From an uncultured Pelagibacteraceae bacterium (GTDB lineage Bacteria; Pseudomonadota; Alphaproteobacteria; Pelagibacterales; AG-422-B15): DNA of 64,000 bases. The DNA is taken from contig CACNXQ010000001.1 of the NCBI GenBank assembly GCA_902624455.1, forward strand, positions 1-64,000, read 5' to 3'. Each line of letters opens with the position of its first letter. Positions within the stretch are counted from its first letter, which is position 1. Shown here piece after piece: positions 23,977-30,863 of the stretch. The notes beneath the pieces were generated by a model that saw nothing but the letters and a program-made list of their open reading frames with translations, was not told the origin of the DNA and did no database searches. Both the position numbers and the translations under genes were made by a program.

Positions 23977-24909
23977 ATGGTAAACCAACCTGCAATATCT
24001 GTTAAAAATTTAAATAAAATATACGGAAAAAATTCATTATCTGAAAAGGTAGCACTTAATAATATAAATTTAGACATTCCTAAGGGATCGATATTTGGTT
24101 TGCTAGGCCCTAATGGTGCGGGTAAGAGTACTTTTATTAATATTCTTGCAGACTTAGTAAAAAAAACTTCTGGTAAAGTTAATGTTCTTGGAGTTGATCA
24201 CGAAAAAGATTTAAAAACAGTTAAATCGTCAATGGGTATTGTTCCACAAGAGTTAAATATTGATCCTTTTTTTACACCTTACGAACTTCTTGAAATTCAA
24301 GCAGGTTTGTACGGTGTCTCAAGAAAAAATAGAAAAACTAATCAAATACTAGAAATGCTTGCTTTATCAGATAAGTCGCAAGCTTATGCGAGAACATTAT
24401 CTGGAGGTATGAGAAGAAGACTTTTAATTGCCAAGGCAATGGTACATGACCCTGAAATATTAATTTTAGATGAGCCTACAGCAGGAGTGGATGTCGAGCT
24501 GCGTTCTAATTTATGGGATAGTATACATTTACTGAACAATAAAGGTAAAACAATTATTCTGACAACTCATTATTTACATGAGGCTGAAGAATTGTGCGAT
24601 ACCATTGCAATCATTGACAGAGGTAAGTTAGTGGCTTGCGATACTAAAGAGAATATAAAATCTTTTATAAATAACAAAAAAATAACTATAAATTATAAAC
24701 CAAAATATAATTTCGATATTTCGGAATTAAAAAAGATGGGTTTGAACATTGAGTATAACGCAAATTGTATTGTGATTAATTATACTCCTAATGAAATTAA
24801 TTTTGATAAAATTTTGCAAAAAATACAAGAAATAGGAATAGAAGTTATAGATATGAATATAAAAGAGTCTAATTTAGAAGATGTTTTTCTAAAGTTAACT
24901 AAGAACTAG
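23977..24909 (+). CDS. ABC transporter ATP-binding protein (ABC-2 exporter type), no permease beside it
   Basis: A 310-residue ATPase. Walker A GLLGPNGAGKSTFINIL near residue 42, Q loop GIVPQELNID, signature LSGGMRRRLLIAKAM, Walker B ILILDEPTAGVD and switch histidine TTHYLHEAEEL are all intact, so it should be active. It resembles YadG/CcmA-type exporters that normally work with an ABC-2 permease encoded next door. None is present: the next gene is a convergent RND exporter whose end overlaps this gene by 11 bp. The membrane partner must lie elsewhere or has been lost. Confidence 0.88.
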   Translation: MVNQPAISVKNLNKIYGKNSLSEKVALNNINLDIPKGSIFGLLGPNGAGKSTFINILADLVKKTSGKVNVLGVDHEKDLKTVKSSMGIVPQELNIDPFFTPYELLEIQAGLYGVSRKNRKTNQILEMLALSDKSQAYARTLSGGMRRRLLIAKAMVHDPEILILDEPTAGVDVELRSNLWDSIHLLNNKGKTIILTTHYLHEAEELCDTIAIIDRGKLVACDTKENIKSFINNKKITINYKPKYNFDISELKKMGLNIEYNANCIVINYTPNEINFDKILQKIQEIGIEVIDMNIKESNLEDVFLKLTKN

Positions 24910-27577
24910 ATTTCCTTGGAAATAATTTGTCAAGTATTACTGCTAATGCAGGTAAGGTTGTCATTGCGCATATCATGTTAACAAAAAACATAAATGTAAG
25001 TAATGATCCCATATCAGCTTGGAATTTCAATGCCGAAAAAGACCAAGTAGATACGCCCACGGCAAGTGTTATCGCTGTGAATACTACCGCTGCACCTGTA
25101 TTTGCAAAAGTATGTTCAAATGCCTCCGTAATGTTCATTCCCTCATTTAACCTTAATTGCGTTCTATTATATATATAAAATGCATAATCCACACCTACTC
25201 CAACTGCTAGAACCATTACTGGAAGAGTTGAAACTTTTAATCCAATTTGAGCTAAATCCATAAATGCATAACCAAGCATAGTTGCAAATGTCAGTGGCAC
25301 CGTGCAACATATCGTTGCTCTCCAATCAAAATATGTAATAAAAACAAGAATAATAATTACTGCGTACACTATTAGCATCATAGGCAGCTCACCTTTTTCA
25401 ATTACTTCATTTGTAGCATGTTGAATGCCGACTGATCCACTAGCTAATCGATATTTTATTTCATCAGCCTCAAATACTAGATGAGAGTATTCTTCGTTAT
25501 TATTAAAAAAATCTTTAAAAGCTGCATCCGATTGTTTTATATCTTTTACTTTGAAATCAACATTTTCGTCAAAAGACTCTATATCAGTGTAATAATTTAA
25601 TAAATTTTGAGTTTGTAAATTACGAGAATTAAATCCATTGTTATATGCGAAGTCAGTAAATTCATCATCGCTAAATACAATTGGATTTTGAGCACCAAGG
25701 CTATCAATTGGAAGTTCCGTGTTACCGACGCCAGATGCATATGGAATAATGGATGTTCCTTCTGCTGGCTTTTGTATCATATACCTGAATGTAAAAGTTT
25801 CATCAGAGTTTCTAAAGTTTTCGTTATATTTTTCTATTGAGTCTATAACTGTACTGATAGTTGTAGCTTTGTGGTCTTCAGTAAAAACATATATAGGTAA
25901 AATAGAGCAAGCCTCATTAAGCAACCCTGTAGTGGGATCAACAACACTGGTTGCGAAAGCAAGAGCTCGTTCATCATGAGGAAGATAGGTCCATTTTAAA
26001 TTACCTTCGGCATAACCACTTAATGCTCTTTTAGCTACACTTGAGAGTGAGATAACTTTTGTTATTCCTGGAATATTTTCCAAATACCAGTGTAGATTGT
26101 CTTGTGCCTCAACTGTATAGGTTGATCTACAAGGATTGATACCTCCTGAAGCCGTTGCTTCAGCAATTACAACTAAAACGTCAGTTGTTACGTTATATCT
26201 TTTTGTTATTTCTGTAATATCTCTATTAAATCTTGCTTCTGGACGTAGCTCTGGCGCTCCTGCATGCAGATCTCCTACATGTCTTTCACTTGCTAAATAT
26301 GCCGCTCCGATAAATAAAACAGCACTTATTGAAAGTGTAATAACTGCTTGTCTCGGTCTGGCTAATTTACCAAAAAAACCCATAAGATTTTGTCTATAAG
26401 TTATTGCTGATTGAGCTGATATTGCAAAGTTGTCATTATATCTAGCGTAAGAGGCAGCAAGTGGTAGCATCACTAAATTAGTCACAATTTTGAATGCAAC
26501 TCCAATTGATGCAGTTATTGCTAGCTCTTTAATCATTGTAATAGGTAATAAAATAAGTGTTCCAAATCCTACTAAGTCTGTGATTAATGCCATTGATCCT
26601 GGAATAATTAATCGCGAGAAGCTCGCTCTCGCTGCAAACTCGGCACTTTTACCGTCTATAACTTCTTTGGTAATCTGATTTACCTGTTGAATTCCATGTG
26701 AGACACCTATTGCAAAAACTAAAAAGGGAACTAGTATCGCCAAAGGATCAAGACCGTAACCAAGAATTTCTAACATTCCGAACTGCCATACCAGTGATGT
26801 TAAAGAACAGATAAGGGGGAGAAATGTTAATGTCCAGGATCGGGAATACCAATAAACAGCAAGCACGGTAAGAATGAAGGCGATTATAAAAAATATAACA
26901 ACGTTAGTCGCTTGAGAAGCAATATCGGATATCATTTTTGCAAATCCAATTATTTCAACTTTATATTTGCCTTGTTCAAATTGATCTCTGATTGTTTCAA
27001 TCTCTTTACCCAGCTCAATATAATCAAGTTTTTCACCTGTACTTCTGTTGTACTCAGTTAATTCGACTTTAATTAGTGAGGAAGTGAAGTCATTTGAAAC
27101 TATACTTCCAACATGACCTCCGGTTAAGATTCTCTCTCTTATTTTATCTATTTTATTCTTATCAAGTTTTTCTGGTACTATATTGCCAGGAATGACTTCT
27201 GTTCTCTCAAATCCTTCTTCGGTAACTCTCATAACAGTAACATTTGAAGTCCATAATGACTGCATTGAACCCTGATTAACACCAGGTAAATATCTGATCG
27301 TTTGATTTAGTTGATATAACTTTTCTAAGTACTCTTTATTAAAAATATCACCCTGAGTAGTACGCAAAGCAACAGTTACACTGTTAGTACCACTTAAATC
27401 ATCAGAATATTGAAAGTATGTTTTTACAAAACTATGGTTTTGAGGGAGTTGTTTTAAAAAACCAGCATCCATTTTTATCTGGACTGCAAAATAACCCATG
27501 ATTAATGTGAGCAGTACAAAACCTGATAATACAATTAAGCGGAATTTGAAAAAAAAATCTTCTATCTTTTGAAGCAT
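24899..27577 (-). CDS. RND-family (MMPL/patched-like) exporter
   Basis: An 892-residue inner-membrane pump with the duplicated RND plan: one helix, a large periplasmic loop, a five- to six-helix block (about 225-420), a second loop (about 440-725) and a final block (about 730-880). Motifs such as FAIGVSHGIQQVNQI and AVGVGVDYAFYIYNRTQLRL mark the two MMPL domains. Relatives move lipids, hopanoids or other hydrophobic molecules rather than classic drugs, and need no AcrA partner in the same operon; none is seen here. It is divergent from the diiron protein across 227 bp rich in palindromes. Substrate unknown. Confidence 0.85.
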   Translation of the reverse strand: MLQKIEDFFFKFRLIVLSGFVLLTLIMGYFAVQIKMDAGFLKQLPQNHSFVKTYFQYSDDLSGTNSVTVALRTTQGDIFNKEYLEKLYQLNQTIRYLPGVNQGSMQSLWTSNVTVMRVTEEGFERTEVIPGNIVPEKLDKNKIDKIRERILTGGHVGSIVSNDFTSSLIKVELTEYNRSTGEKLDYIELGKEIETIRDQFEQGKYKVEIIGFAKMISDIASQATNVVIFFIIAFILTVLAVYWYSRSWTLTFLPLICSLTSLVWQFGMLEILGYGLDPLAILVPFLVFAIGVSHGIQQVNQITKEVIDGKSAEFAARASFSRLIIPGSMALITDLVGFGTLILLPITMIKELAITASIGVAFKIVTNLVMLPLAASYARYNDNFAISAQSAITYRQNLMGFFGKLARPRQAVITLSISAVLFIGAAYLASERHVGDLHAGAPELRPEARFNRDITEITKRYNVTTDVLVVIAEATASGGINPCRSTYTVEAQDNLHWYLENIPGITKVISLSSVAKRALSGYAEGNLKWTYLPHDERALAFATSVVDPTTGLLNEACSILPIYVFTEDHKATTISTVIDSIEKYNENFRNSDETFTFRYMIQKPAEGTSIIPYASGVGNTELPIDSLGAQNPIVFSDDEFTDFAYNNGFNSRNLQTQNLLNYYTDIESFDENVDFKVKDIKQSDAAFKDFFNNNEEYSHLVFEADEIKYRLASGSVGIQHATNEVIEKGELPMMLIVYAVIIILVFITYFDWRATICCTVPLTFATMLGYAFMDLAQIGLKVSTLPVMVLAVGVGVDYAFYIYNRTQLRLNEGMNITEAFEHTFANTGAAVVFTAITLAVGVSTWSFSALKFQADMGSLLTFMFFVNMICAMTTLPALAVILDKLFPRKSSS

Positions 27578-27617
27578 CGTCTCTTTTGTTGTCGTTTAGT
27601 AAAAAATTACGGGAACT

Positions 27618-27642
27618 TAACATTTTTGATTGATAAATGTTA
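27618..27642. promoter_or_regulatory. Inverted repeat TAACATTT-N9-AAATGTTA upstream of the RND gene
   Basis: Perfect 8-bp arms at 27618-27625 and 27635-27642, about 40 bp before the RND start codon on the minus strand. A separate 12-bp palindrome ACTATTAATAGT lies at 27690-27701. Either may be an operator, but AT-rich palindromes arise easily by chance here. Confidence 0.4.
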
Positions 27643-27743
27643 GTCTATATATACATATTTGATTGTAAGTTAAAATCAATAACAGCATGACTATTAATAG
27701 TAATTATACTAATCTATTGATATTGTTTATAAAATAAGGATAA

Positions 27744-27765
27744 AAAATGAACGCCTGTTCATTTT
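27744..27765. promoter_or_regulatory. TetR-type operator-like palindrome AAAATGAAC-GCCT-GTTCATTTT
   Basis: A perfect inverted repeat with 9-bp arms and a 4-base centre, ending 39 bp before the diiron protein start at 27805. A possible -35 (TTGATA, 27717-27722) and an A-rich -10 region run directly into it, so a bound repressor would block transcription. The size and spacing resemble TetR/AcrR operators. No such regulator is encoded in the window. Confidence 0.6.
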
Positions 27766-27804
27766 AAATCTTTGAATATAACAAATATTATATATAATGG
27801 TCTT

Positions 27805-29001
27805 ATGGTTGAACTTAAACAAAGATTGGACTTCGCGAGAATAGTTGCTAAAGACCAACTGTTTAAAATTAAGAGAAAATGGCAGCTTACCCGTAGTGGC
27901 AAGAACTCCATGAATAAAGACCCTGCATATAATGCGGCAAATCCTAGTCACTTCATTCCAATGATTGAAGAAGATAGATACATTGAGCGTGTAGATAGTT
28001 TTGATAAAATGATATCTGCTACTCATAAACATTTTTGGGACCCAAATGATAAAGCTTACATTGATTTTGATGAGCCTTTTGATATGGAAAATGAATATAT
28101 TGTTGACCCAAGAGTTTTTTGTATGGAATTACGTGTTCCGTCAGTTGCGAATAAATTAAATGAACAACAAAAAATCAAATTGAATAATGAAAGTTTCAGA
28201 TGGGTTCTATCTCAAATTTTACATGGTGAACAAGGTGCATTATCACTCAGTGCTAGTCTGTGTCATATTTTGAAGGATCCAGGCGCTCAAGAATACGCTG
28301 CAAATCAAACTCGTGAAGAAGCAAGACATGTAACAGGCTTTACAAACTATATTAAAGCTCGATGGGGCTCGCCGTATCCTGTTGGCCCTACACTTGGAAG
28401 AATACTTGAACAGATAGTTTCATCAGATGTTGTATATAAAAAAATTGTAGGTATGCAGATGATGATTGAAGGTCTCGCAATGGGTGCATTTGGGATGGCT
28501 CATCAAGACACAAATGATCCTCTTTTAAAAACTCTCTTAAAATATACTATGAGTGACGAAGCCTTTCATCATAAATTCGGAAAGATATGGGCGGATAGAA
28601 CAGTTCCAAAACTCTCTGAGTCAGAGAGATACAAAGTCGAAGATTGGTCTGCCTCAATATTTAAGGATTTGTTATTCAATCTAGTTAATCCGTGGGAGAA
28701 AAAACCAATATATGAAAGTGTGGGCTTGGATCATAAGTTCGTAGCGGACGCATTTTTGAATGAGTTTGATCGTGACTCAGTTATCAAAGAAGAAATGCTT
28801 CAAAGTAATAATATCTTCAGAGTTCTATGTAAAACTCTACTAAAGGCTAACATAATCACAAAAAGAACGAAAAAGATGTATGCTGAATTTGTCGATATGG
28901 AGGAACTAAATGCTGAAGATGACGAAGTTGCTGGTATTGAAATCGCAAATGAGGGTATAGCAACTTTAGAAAAAATTAATCAAGCAAAAAAAGTAGCTTA
29001 A
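27805..29001 (+). CDS. Ferritin-like diiron protein (R2-like fold), unknown substrate
   Basis: A 398-residue helical protein. I chose ATG 27805 (MVELKQRLDFARIVAKDQ) over a TTG at 27772. The four-helix diiron pattern is visible: LHGEQGALSL (first glutamate), REEARHVTGF (ExxH), MMIEGLAMGAF (third glutamate) and SDEAFHHKFG (second ExxH). This is the ligand set of ferritin-like oxygenases or desaturases such as AurF or acyl desaturases, though I cannot place it in one named family. An N-terminal extension of about 90 residues and a C-terminal tail of about 110 residues flank the core. It is divergent from the RND exporter with a shared operator-like palindrome, so both may respond to one hydrophobic compound; that is inference. 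Confidence 0.78.
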   Translation: MVELKQRLDFARIVAKDQLFKIKRKWQLTRSGKNSMNKDPAYNAANPSHFIPMIEEDRYIERVDSFDKMISATHKHFWDPNDKAYIDFDEPFDMENEYIVDPRVFCMELRVPSVANKLNEQQKIKLNNESFRWVLSQILHGEQGALSLSASLCHILKDPGAQEYAANQTREEARHVTGFTNYIKARWGSPYPVGPTLGRILEQIVSSDVVYKKIVGMQMMIEGLAMGAFGMAHQDTNDPLLKTLLKYTMSDEAFHHKFGKIWADRTVPKLSESERYKVEDWSASIFKDLLFNLVNPWEKKPIYESVGLDHKFVADAFLNEFDRDSVIKEEMLQSNNIFRVLCKTLLKANIITKRTKKMYAEFVDMEELNAEDDEVAGIEIANEGIATLEKINQAKKVA

Positions 29002-29008
29002 GTATTTA

Positions 29009-29572
29009 CTATTTAGGAGATCTTTTCTGAAGTATTCTTTGTAGTGTCCTACGATGCATTTTCAACCTTCTTGCTGTCTCGGAAACATTTCTATTACATA
29101 ATTCATAGACTCTCAAAATATGTTCCCACTTAACTCTATCAGCCGACATTGGATTAACAGGAGGTTCTGGATTTGAGTCATAAGGAGCGAGCAAAGCTGA
29201 CTCAATATCATCAGCATTAGCTGGTTTAGCTAGATAATCACAAGCACCTTCTTTAACTGCTGCAACAGCTGTAGGTATATTACCATATCCAGTGAGCATA
29301 ACAATTTTACTGTCTGATCTGTTACTTGAAATCATAGATACAATCTGTAGACCATTACCGTCGTTTAGCCTTAAATCTATTACAGCATATTTTGGTACAC
29401 TTTTTTTTAACAAAGACTCTGCTTCTGCAACTGAAGCTGCTCCAAAAGGCTTAAAACCTTTTCTTTCCATTGCTGTAATCAATCTATTCCTGAAAATATC
29501 GTCATCATCGAGAACCAGCAAACTCTTATCGCCGCTTTCGTAAGATTTTAAGTCATTCATATTGTTAATCAT
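29009..29572 (-). CDS. regA: Redox response regulator RegA (PrrA/ActR)
   Basis: A 187-residue regulator with receiver domain (LLVLDDDDIFRNRL, phospho-acceptor in YAVIDLRLNDGNG, KMVMLTGYG-like VMLTGYGNIPTA) and a short Fis-like DNA-binding domain whose C-terminus RRLKMHRRTLQRILQKRSPK is nearly invariant in RegA proteins. It partners RegB, whose gene overlaps it by 8 bp upstream. RegA controls respiration and other redox-linked genes in alphaproteobacteria. Its end lies 7 bp from the convergent diiron gene. Confidence 0.95.
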   Translation of the reverse strand: MINNMNDLKSYESGDKSLLVLDDDDIFRNRLITAMERKGFKPFGAASVAEAESLLKKSVPKYAVIDLRLNDGNGLQIVSMISSNRSDSKIVMLTGYGNIPTAVAAVKEGACDYLAKPANADDIESALLAPYDSNPEPPVNPMSADRVKWEHILRVYELCNRNVSETARRLKMHRRTLQRILQKRSPK

Positions 29573-30863
29573 TTATACCAATGGCTTTTTTTTGAAGTTT
29601 TATCTGCACATGGCCACCTAAGTTGCTTTCTTTTATAAAAGTAATTTCACTAGAGAATTTGGCAAGTAGATTTTTTGAAATAAATAAGCCAAGTCCAAGA
29701 CCAGGATTTTCTGCCTCATTATTATTTCTCAAATAGGGTTCACCTAGAAGAGGAAAGATTTCACTAGGAAATCCTGGTCCATCATCTATCACCTCAATCA
29801 AGATAAATTGATCATCATCTAAAAGATTAATAGTAATTTTTTTCTTTGAAAATTTGACTGCATTATCAATGATGTTGGTTAAGGATTGAATAAGTTCAGG
29901 AGATCTTGTGACAGTAATATTCTTATCATCAAAATAACTATCACAATTCACATCAAAAATTATATCAACTTTCTGGTAATAACTTACAATTTCATTTATC
30001 AACCTTTTAAAATCTAGCTGATTTATAAATTCATTGCTATTATTTGAAAGTTTATTTGTCCTTAATCTCTCAAGTATTTCGCTACATCTTTTTACTTGAG
30101 ATTGAATGACTTCTAAATCATTTTGTATATTTTGATCTAAATTTTTATTTATTGTTAATTCTTTAGAGATTATTGAAATAGTTGACAGTGGAGTGCCAAG
30201 TTCGTGCACTGCTGCTGCAGTGAGGCTCATTATTGCCGAAACTTTCTCTTCATTAGATAATGAAAGTTGTGTTTGTTGTAAAGCCTTTCTTGTTTTTCTA
30301 GACTCATGAGCTACTCTAAAACAATAGGCTGTGATAAAAACAGATGCAATTATAAGTGCATCCCATATCAAAAAGATTTCAAACTTTGAGAAATTATTTC
30401 TACTTATACCAAGTGAACTACTCTCTAAAGGATAGTAATAAATTGAAAGAATAGAGAATGATAGAATTGCAATTAATGTAATTAAAATTGTTCTCCTCAA
30501 ATCTAAATATGTTGCCGATATAACGAGTGGTGCCAAAATAAGTACACTAAAAGGGTTAGTTAGACCTCCAGTAAAATATAGAAGCAAAATTAATTGCACT
30601 AGATCATAAACTAAATAAAAAAATGTTTCATTAAAGTTTAATATTTTTGTTACCGGGTATCGAATTGATACTGTTATATTTAGTAAAACACTGCCAAAGA
30701 TAAGAAGAAGGGCCAAAAAAATGTTAAAGGATATTTCAAAATAGAAGAAAGCAATTAGGACCGCAAATAATTGTCCAAAAATTGCTATCCAACGAATTAA
30801 ATTTAATGTTCTTAGTTTAAGATTTTCTTCTTGTTCAACAGCTTCTTTTAAATAATCAATCAA
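29565..30863 (-). CDS. regB: Redox sensor histidine kinase RegB (PrrB/ActS)
   Basis: A 432-residue membrane kinase with six N-terminal helices. The quinone-sensing heptapeptide GGLTNPF is at 99-105, the H box AAVHELGTPLSTIS places the phospho-accepting histidine at 220, and the redox cysteine in KRCSEIL is at 260. The 40-residue distance between these two equals that between H225 and C265 of Rhodobacter RegB. ATPase motifs DNAVKFSK, DDGPGF and GLGLGLFISK are intact. It starts at TTG and is divergent from the YgjP-like gene by about 49 bp. It should sense quinone redox state. Confidence 0.95.
   Translation of the reverse strand: MIDYLKEAVEQEENLKLRTLNLIRWIAIFGQLFAVLIAFFYFEISFNIFLALLLIFGSVLLNITVSIRYPVTKILNFNETFFYLVYDLVQLILLLYFTGGLTNPFSVLILAPLVISATYLDLRRTILITLIAILSFSILSIYYYPLESSSLGISRNNFSKFEIFLIWDALIIASVFITAYCFRVAHESRKTRKALQQTQLSLSNEEKVSAIMSLTAAAVHELGTPLSTISIISKELTINKNLDQNIQNDLEVIQSQVKRCSEILERLRTNKLSNNSNEFINQLDFKRLINEIVSYYQKVDIIFDVNCDSYFDDKNITVTRSPELIQSLTNIIDNAVKFSKKKITINLLDDDQFILIEVIDDGPGFPSEIFPLLGEPYLRNNNEAENPGLGLGLFISKNLLAKFSSEITFIKESNLGGHVQIKLQKKAIGIND

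Follow-up and report, generated by a model that had tools for sequence, protein, structure and literature searches.

The locus raises the question of what reads a short palindrome lying between two divergent genes, a transporter and a putative diiron enzyme, and which of the two genes it serves. The evidence assembled below indicates that the palindrome is a regulator-binding site whose position is shared between SAR11-like bacteria and distant relatives that degrade hydrocarbons. Its probable reader is a TetR-type regulator encoded at an unlinked location. The host genome (1.32 Mb, 15 contigs) belongs to the genus AG-422-B15 (Pelagibacterales), a group of SAR11 relatives represented in the analysis by 43 genomes. 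The window, that is the whole stretch of DNA analysed, comprises 64,000 nucleotides and contains the following features:

24899..27577, reverse strand: MMPL/HAE3-type RND transporter, divergent from the diiron gene and retained beside it by the genus and at many outgroup loci
27618..27642, no strand: second repeat, TAACATTT-N9-AAATGTTA, present, not conserved and outside the system
27744..27765, no strand: operator-like 22-bp palindrome, AAAATGAACGCCTGTTCATTTT, with perfect arms, conserved in the genus and with a counterpart of like geometry in outgroups
27748-27761: 14-bp core of the palindrome, TGAACGCCTGTTCA, the segment used for column identity over 27 genomes
27793..27798, forward strand: -10 box TATAAT of the diiron gene, conserved, here 31 nt after the 14-bp core
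27805..29001, forward strand: AurF-like (ferritin-like) diiron protein of 398 aa, with a weak PF11583 match and the ligand residues
29009..30863, reverse strand: RegA/ActR response regulator and RegB/ActS kinase, convergent with the diiron gene and syntenic with the pair

The palindrome and the diiron promoter

As the initial annotation had it, the palindrome is a perfect 9-4-9 repeat, AAAATGAAC-GCCT-GTTCATTTT, and it sits between the reverse-strand RND gene and the diiron gene, whose start is the ATG at 27805 rather than the upstream TTG of the ORF call. The perfection of the arms, which had been taken to make a background origin unlikely, is by itself nothing unusual here: with arms of at least 9 and spacers of at most 8 nucleotides, perfect inverted repeats number 10 in the window, against 6.0 expected in Markov sequence. 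Thus, the bare palindrome is not exceptional and the case for it rests on comparison across genomes. Near-matches elsewhere in its own genome lie inside long open frames (two loci). The second repeat is indeed present upstream of the RND gene, but the role once proposed for it falls away, as it has no counterpart among 26 aligned genus relatives. The edges of the site are A..T in the outgroups described below and AAAA...TTTT here, so that the 9-4-9 repeat can be read as a 22-bp operator, laid out in this genome as AA-nn-TGAAC-N4-GTTCA-nn-TT. With its two half-sites it falls within the size range of TetR-family operators (approximately 14-22 bp).

The palindrome had also been placed over the -10/start region; instead, the conserved TATAAT lies 31 nt downstream of the core, and the palindrome abuts the -35 element on its upstream side, with its center at about -50 from the inferred transcription start. 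The ATG follows the TATAAT by only 6 nt, which suggests that the diiron mRNA is probably leaderless. A TATAAT placed just 5-10 nt before the ATG, without a Shine-Dalgarno sequence, is seen both here (27793-27805) and at the aminotransferase promoters discussed below, and leaderless transcripts may be common in the genus.

Homologues of the diiron protein (72-88% identical) were recovered from 29 of the 59 genomes searched, many of which are incomplete, and only from the genus itself; in these relatives the RND gene lies beside the diiron gene in the same divergent layout. Both the pair and the dyad are kept in all 27 genus genomes having the full upstream region, bearing out the earlier expectations that the two genes stay together and that the palindrome is conserved where they do. 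The dyad follows the consensus TGAACA-N2-TGTTCA at a single position, 30-31 nt before the TATAAT. Core and TATAAT are separated by 30 nt in 25 of these genomes and by 31 nt in the other two, one of them being the present genome, and this distance is fixed despite differing sequence between the two elements. Across these 27 genomes the twelve outer columns of the dyad, its center excluded, are 95% identical, as against 68% for the whole intergenic region. No conserved dyad was recovered at the RND end of the aligned genus genomes, and the site spacing is fixed to the diiron promoter only. The proposed shared control of exporter and enzyme is therefore unsupported, and the exporter may or may not be under the same control as the diiron gene.

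The diiron protein itself matches PF11583 with an E-value of 5e-6 and a score of 26.3 bits, under the 29.6-bit cut-off, while weak matches were also found to the aldehyde-deformylating oxygenase and to RNR R2. It possesses the ligand pattern of ferritin-like four-helix diiron proteins (E, EExxH, E, DExxHH), with the invariant residues E142, E171/E172, H175, E222, D251/E252 and H255/H256. Its structural model is all-helical, at moderate confidence, and the fold matches in the PDB are weak (again RNR R2 and the aldehyde-deformylating oxygenase). The RND/diiron pair is an ancient one, and the gene order RND - diiron - RegA - RegB (24899-30863 in the window) is shared by SAR11-like bacteria with Parvibaculum and Tepidicaulis. 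This synteny prompted consideration of RegA/PrrA as the reader of the palindrome, which was rejected since several loci (L127-L129, L146, L148, L149) keep RegA with the same HTH and are without the palindrome.

A counterpart motif and regulon in distant Alphaproteobacteria

Diiron homologues that are 56-61% identical to the present one occur in Parvibaculum, Tepidicaulis, SO-S41 and other Alphaproteobacteria (39 loci), and the divergent RND gene is kept in 15 of these, mostly together with RegA/RegB. In 32 of the 39 loci the region from -300 to +20 of the diiron gene contains the motif TGAC(A/G/T)-N4-(C/T/A)GTCA, at 98 times the density seen over the remainder of these loci. Those without it include the second genes of tandem diiron pairs, in which the site precedes the first gene. 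When the best -35/-10 pair was chosen with no distance assumed, 29 of the 32 loci had their -10 at 28-32 nt from the palindrome; when the sequence downstream was shuffled 500 times, that number averaged 5.5 and never exceeded 14. The outgroup sites are laid out over 22 bp as AA-nn-TGAC-N6-GTCA-nn-TT, a geometry that they share with the genus site. Conservation of the palindrome alongside the gene pair extends to these distant Alphaproteobacteria in the form of a related motif. At the promoters of some outgroup diiron genes (L163, L178, L179, L181, L184) the operator is doubled, with a distance of 23-24 bp between the copies, and it is usually the second copy that covers the -35 element.

A strict form of the motif, TGACGNNNNCGTCA, is present in 18, 12, 16 and 21 copies in four genomes, as against 1, 0, 2 and 3 copies of the reversed control. 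Besides diiron genes, the intergenic outgroup sites precede two P450 genes, ferredoxin reductases of the Pyr_redox/Reductase_C type, GMC oxidoreductases, one FMO, a zinc alcohol dehydrogenase and a thiolase, and the nature of these genes suggests that the motif marks an aliphatic-oxidation regulon. The idea that exporter and enzyme act on a common hydrophobic molecule finds its only hint in the P450, GMC and FMO genes of this distant regulon and is otherwise unsupported. Some of the TGACG-N4-CGTCA sites have TAA(G)/(C)TTA centers and adjoin a MerR-type regulator, a lipoprotein gene or a thiolase (L216, L224, L238, L243); this subset may serve as operator for another regulator, one of the MerR type. 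In certain Pelagibacterales (L126-L129, with the absence of TetR2, introduced below, checked in L126 and L127) the region before the diiron gene has a different dyad, TATATCA-N3-TGATATA, whose distance to the -10 is much the same, as though the slot had passed to another regulator.

Candidate regulators of the site

The present genome encodes two TetR proteins above the PF00440 cut-off, TetR1 and TetR2. TetR2 lies elsewhere in the genome, on contig C3, in the context pyrD-TetR2-SDR and unlinked to the palindrome; pyrD is found on the same strand approximately 1-5 kb from TetR2 in 14 of 18 TetR2 loci with wider flanks. A TetR2 profile recovered one clear orthologue in each of 19 outgroup genomes (E 1e-48 to 1e-84; next best 1e-17). 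The same profile search detected none in three Pelagibacterales genomes (G085-G087) whose diiron upstream region lacks the dyad, so that TetR2 is absent where the site is absent. It speaks against TetR2 that its recognition helix, LxSGTFYNYF, is nearly invariant across lineages although the half-site differs (TGACG versus TGAAC). In SO-S41 the interval between the TetR2 orthologue and a thiolase contains a TGACG-N4-CGTCA site; the other 18 orthologues have no such site within approximately 3-6 kb, which suggests that TetR2 autoregulation is not general. Moreover, the SO-S41 site, with a CTTA center, has the same sequence as a site next to a MerR-type gene (L238), and the MerR-type regulator could be its reader. 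Given that TetR2 tracks the operator and TetR1 shows the opposite distribution, TetR2 is the better of the two and an unlinked TetR regulator the best reading; it is our best candidate for the reader of the palindrome, on a correlation drawn from few independent losses (three genomes, perhaps two lineages). The unlinked TetR-type repressor of the initial annotation is thus retained as far as the family and its location go, through this co-occurrence, whereas the word repressor is not, the position of the site being equally compatible with activation.

TetR1 was at first favored because its own cluster carries the same 14-mer. The cluster (L107, at 205.5-219 kb of contig C1) comprises TetR1, FAD oxidoreductases, a GcvT-like protein, an aminotransferase, a Rieske oxygenase and an ABC importer, and looks like one for quaternary-amine or polyamine catabolism. 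If TetR1, as a BetI-like repressor of this cluster, also read the diiron palindrome, the diiron gene would belong to its regulon. No genus genome has more than two exact sites, and the ones inspected precede the diiron and aminotransferase genes; in most genus genomes the 14-mer TGAACANNTGTTCA recurs before the aminotransferase, 4.6 kb from TetR1. A genus-wide search with TTGAA-N6-TTCAA was too unspecific. The aminotransferase promoter has TTGAACAGCTGTTCAA in most of the genus, TTGAACGCTCATTCAA in the present genome and TTGAATAGCTATTCAA in G086; the first of these has the core of the diiron site, so TetR1 may read both, and in the present genome the diiron core and the site of the TetR1 cluster, TGAACGCTCATTCA, are alike. 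This site before the aminotransferase-Rieske-ABC importer genes varies in its half-site by lineage (T/A to C/G), and an invariant TTGAATGATTATTCAA lies between TetR1 and the divergent flavin oxidoreductase. Yet the distribution of the diiron palindrome does not follow TetR1: G085-G087 have TetR1 and no palindrome, whereas all eight outgroup genomes tested have the palindrome and no TetR1. Furthermore, the TetR1 sites keep an outer T..A (TTGAAY-N4-RTTCAA, as also in the G086 site), where the diiron sites mostly have A or G, and the aminotransferase site overlaps the -35 element at 8 nt from the -10, as against 30 nt at the diiron promoter. Control by TetR1 is consequently rather unlikely.

About equally doubtful is that some other dimeric regulator, e.g. 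of the MerR/LiuR, GntR, LysR or Crp/Fnr type, reads the site, and that TetR2 merely co-occurs with it through the many genes that these genomes share. The few independent lineages spanned by the TetR2 co-occurrence, which make it weak evidence, and the presence of TGACGCTTACGTCA at the MerR-type gene of the Mf 1.05b.01 genome (L238) speak for this alternative. MerR sites sit inside the promoter spacer and Crp/Fnr sites are 14-mers at -41.5, and the 22-bp geometry of the present site with its center at about -50 is ill-suited to either. ArsR/SmtB, which the TGAACA-N2-TGTTCA core had brought to mind, is rejected: PF01022 is absent from 12 of 12 genus genomes and was recovered in 14 of 14 controls. 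The TetR genes near the outgroup diiron paralogues were likewise discarded as readers, being of several unrelated types.

It is very improbable that the site serves no protein at all, being a chance palindrome, an RNA hairpin or a leader mini-ORF (ATGAACGCCTGTTCATTTTAA), even if such perfect repeats turn up repeatedly in the AT-rich window and the site reads as a 6-codon ORF in this genome. Shuffles alone are insufficient to exclude chance, which is instead excluded by conservation above the surroundings, together with the fixed -10 spacing and the presence of counterparts in genomes of high GC content. Being located upstream of the -10, the site would be untranscribed from the diiron promoter, and several relatives lack the early stop codon of the mini-ORF or have a GTG start. 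Least probable of all is LexA, whose Gram-positive-type box GAAC-N4-GTTC matches the core of the palindrome, for the alphaproteobacterial LexA box differs and is 7-spaced, the outgroup counterpart is TGACG-N4-CGTCA, and none of the exact sites read in genus genomes precedes an SOS gene.

Proposed mechanism and its implications

The proposal builds on what can be read from the genomes themselves, namely a conserved site at a fixed distance from the -10, the TGACG-N4-CGTCA counterpart and the co-occurrence with TetR2. We consider it somewhat better than even (a probability of roughly 0.55) that the palindrome is the operator of the diiron promoter, with TetR2 as the most likely binder and an effector that is probably aliphatic or lipid-like. 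Under this proposal a TetR2 dimer would bind the 22-bp site next to the -35 element and act on the promoter from about -50 by contact with RNA polymerase, resulting in either activation or steric repression; the strict spacing fits polymerase contact in activation about as well as it fits steric repression. TetR2 would thereby set the transcription of the AurF-like oxygenase in response to its effector. In terms of occupancy, TetR2 would be expected at the ATGAACGCCTGTTCAT and TGACGCNNGCGTCA promoters and TetR1 at TTGAATGATTATTCAA. A more speculative extension, which we consider rather unlikely, is that AG-422-B15, a streamlined SAR11 relative, retains one or two genes of what was once a larger alphaproteobacterial regulon for aliphatic oxidation, of ancient origin, in which a TetR-family activator at about -50 has kept its spacing to the -10 since the split from Parvibaculum-type bacteria, and that in sister Pelagibacterales another regulator, reading TATATCA-N3-TGATATA, came to occupy the slot.

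SAR11-like bacteria have few transcription factors and hence their regulation is hardly known. The above observations offer a candidate regulator, operator and promoter for a widespread, uncharacterised AurF-like diiron family found beside an RND transporter across Alphaproteobacteria, and point to a role of the diiron enzyme in oxidising aliphatic compounds or lipids in SAR11-like ocean bacteria. They also present a case in which the half-site of an operator has drifted, from TGACG to TGAAC, while its position in the promoter stayed fixed.

Comparison with known systems

The diiron protein shares the ferritin-like ligand pattern of the AurF p-aminobenzoate N-oxygenase family, but differs in scoring below the Pfam cut-off of that family. 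Its RND neighbour matches MMPL (PF03176) and the HAE3 model TIGR00921, and scores well under the cut-offs of both HAE3 and the hopanoid transporter HpnN. BetI, the choline-responsive TetR repressor, resembles TetR1 in its C-terminal domain (PF13977; TIGR03384 at 105 bits), and the TetR1 sites are similar to the diiron palindrome; nevertheless, the 105 bits are below the 201-bit equivalog cut-off and TetR1 does not track the palindrome in its distribution. The literature searched yielded no papers on the genus AG-422-B15 or on this operator and regulon. Also among the closest known systems, compared at the family level, are the PsrA, FabR and FadP operators of TetR-family regulators that control fatty-acid metabolism regulons (Leyn et al. 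2016, PMC5343134), FadP being unique to betaproteobacteria in that survey. The likeness lies in the distant TGACG-N4-CGTCA sites, which precede thiolase, P450, alcohol-oxidising and diiron genes, whereas the diiron site is distinguished from these operators by abutting the -35 element at a fixed spacing. Thus, in conclusion the operator and its regulon are new and undescribed, while being of a general kind that is known.
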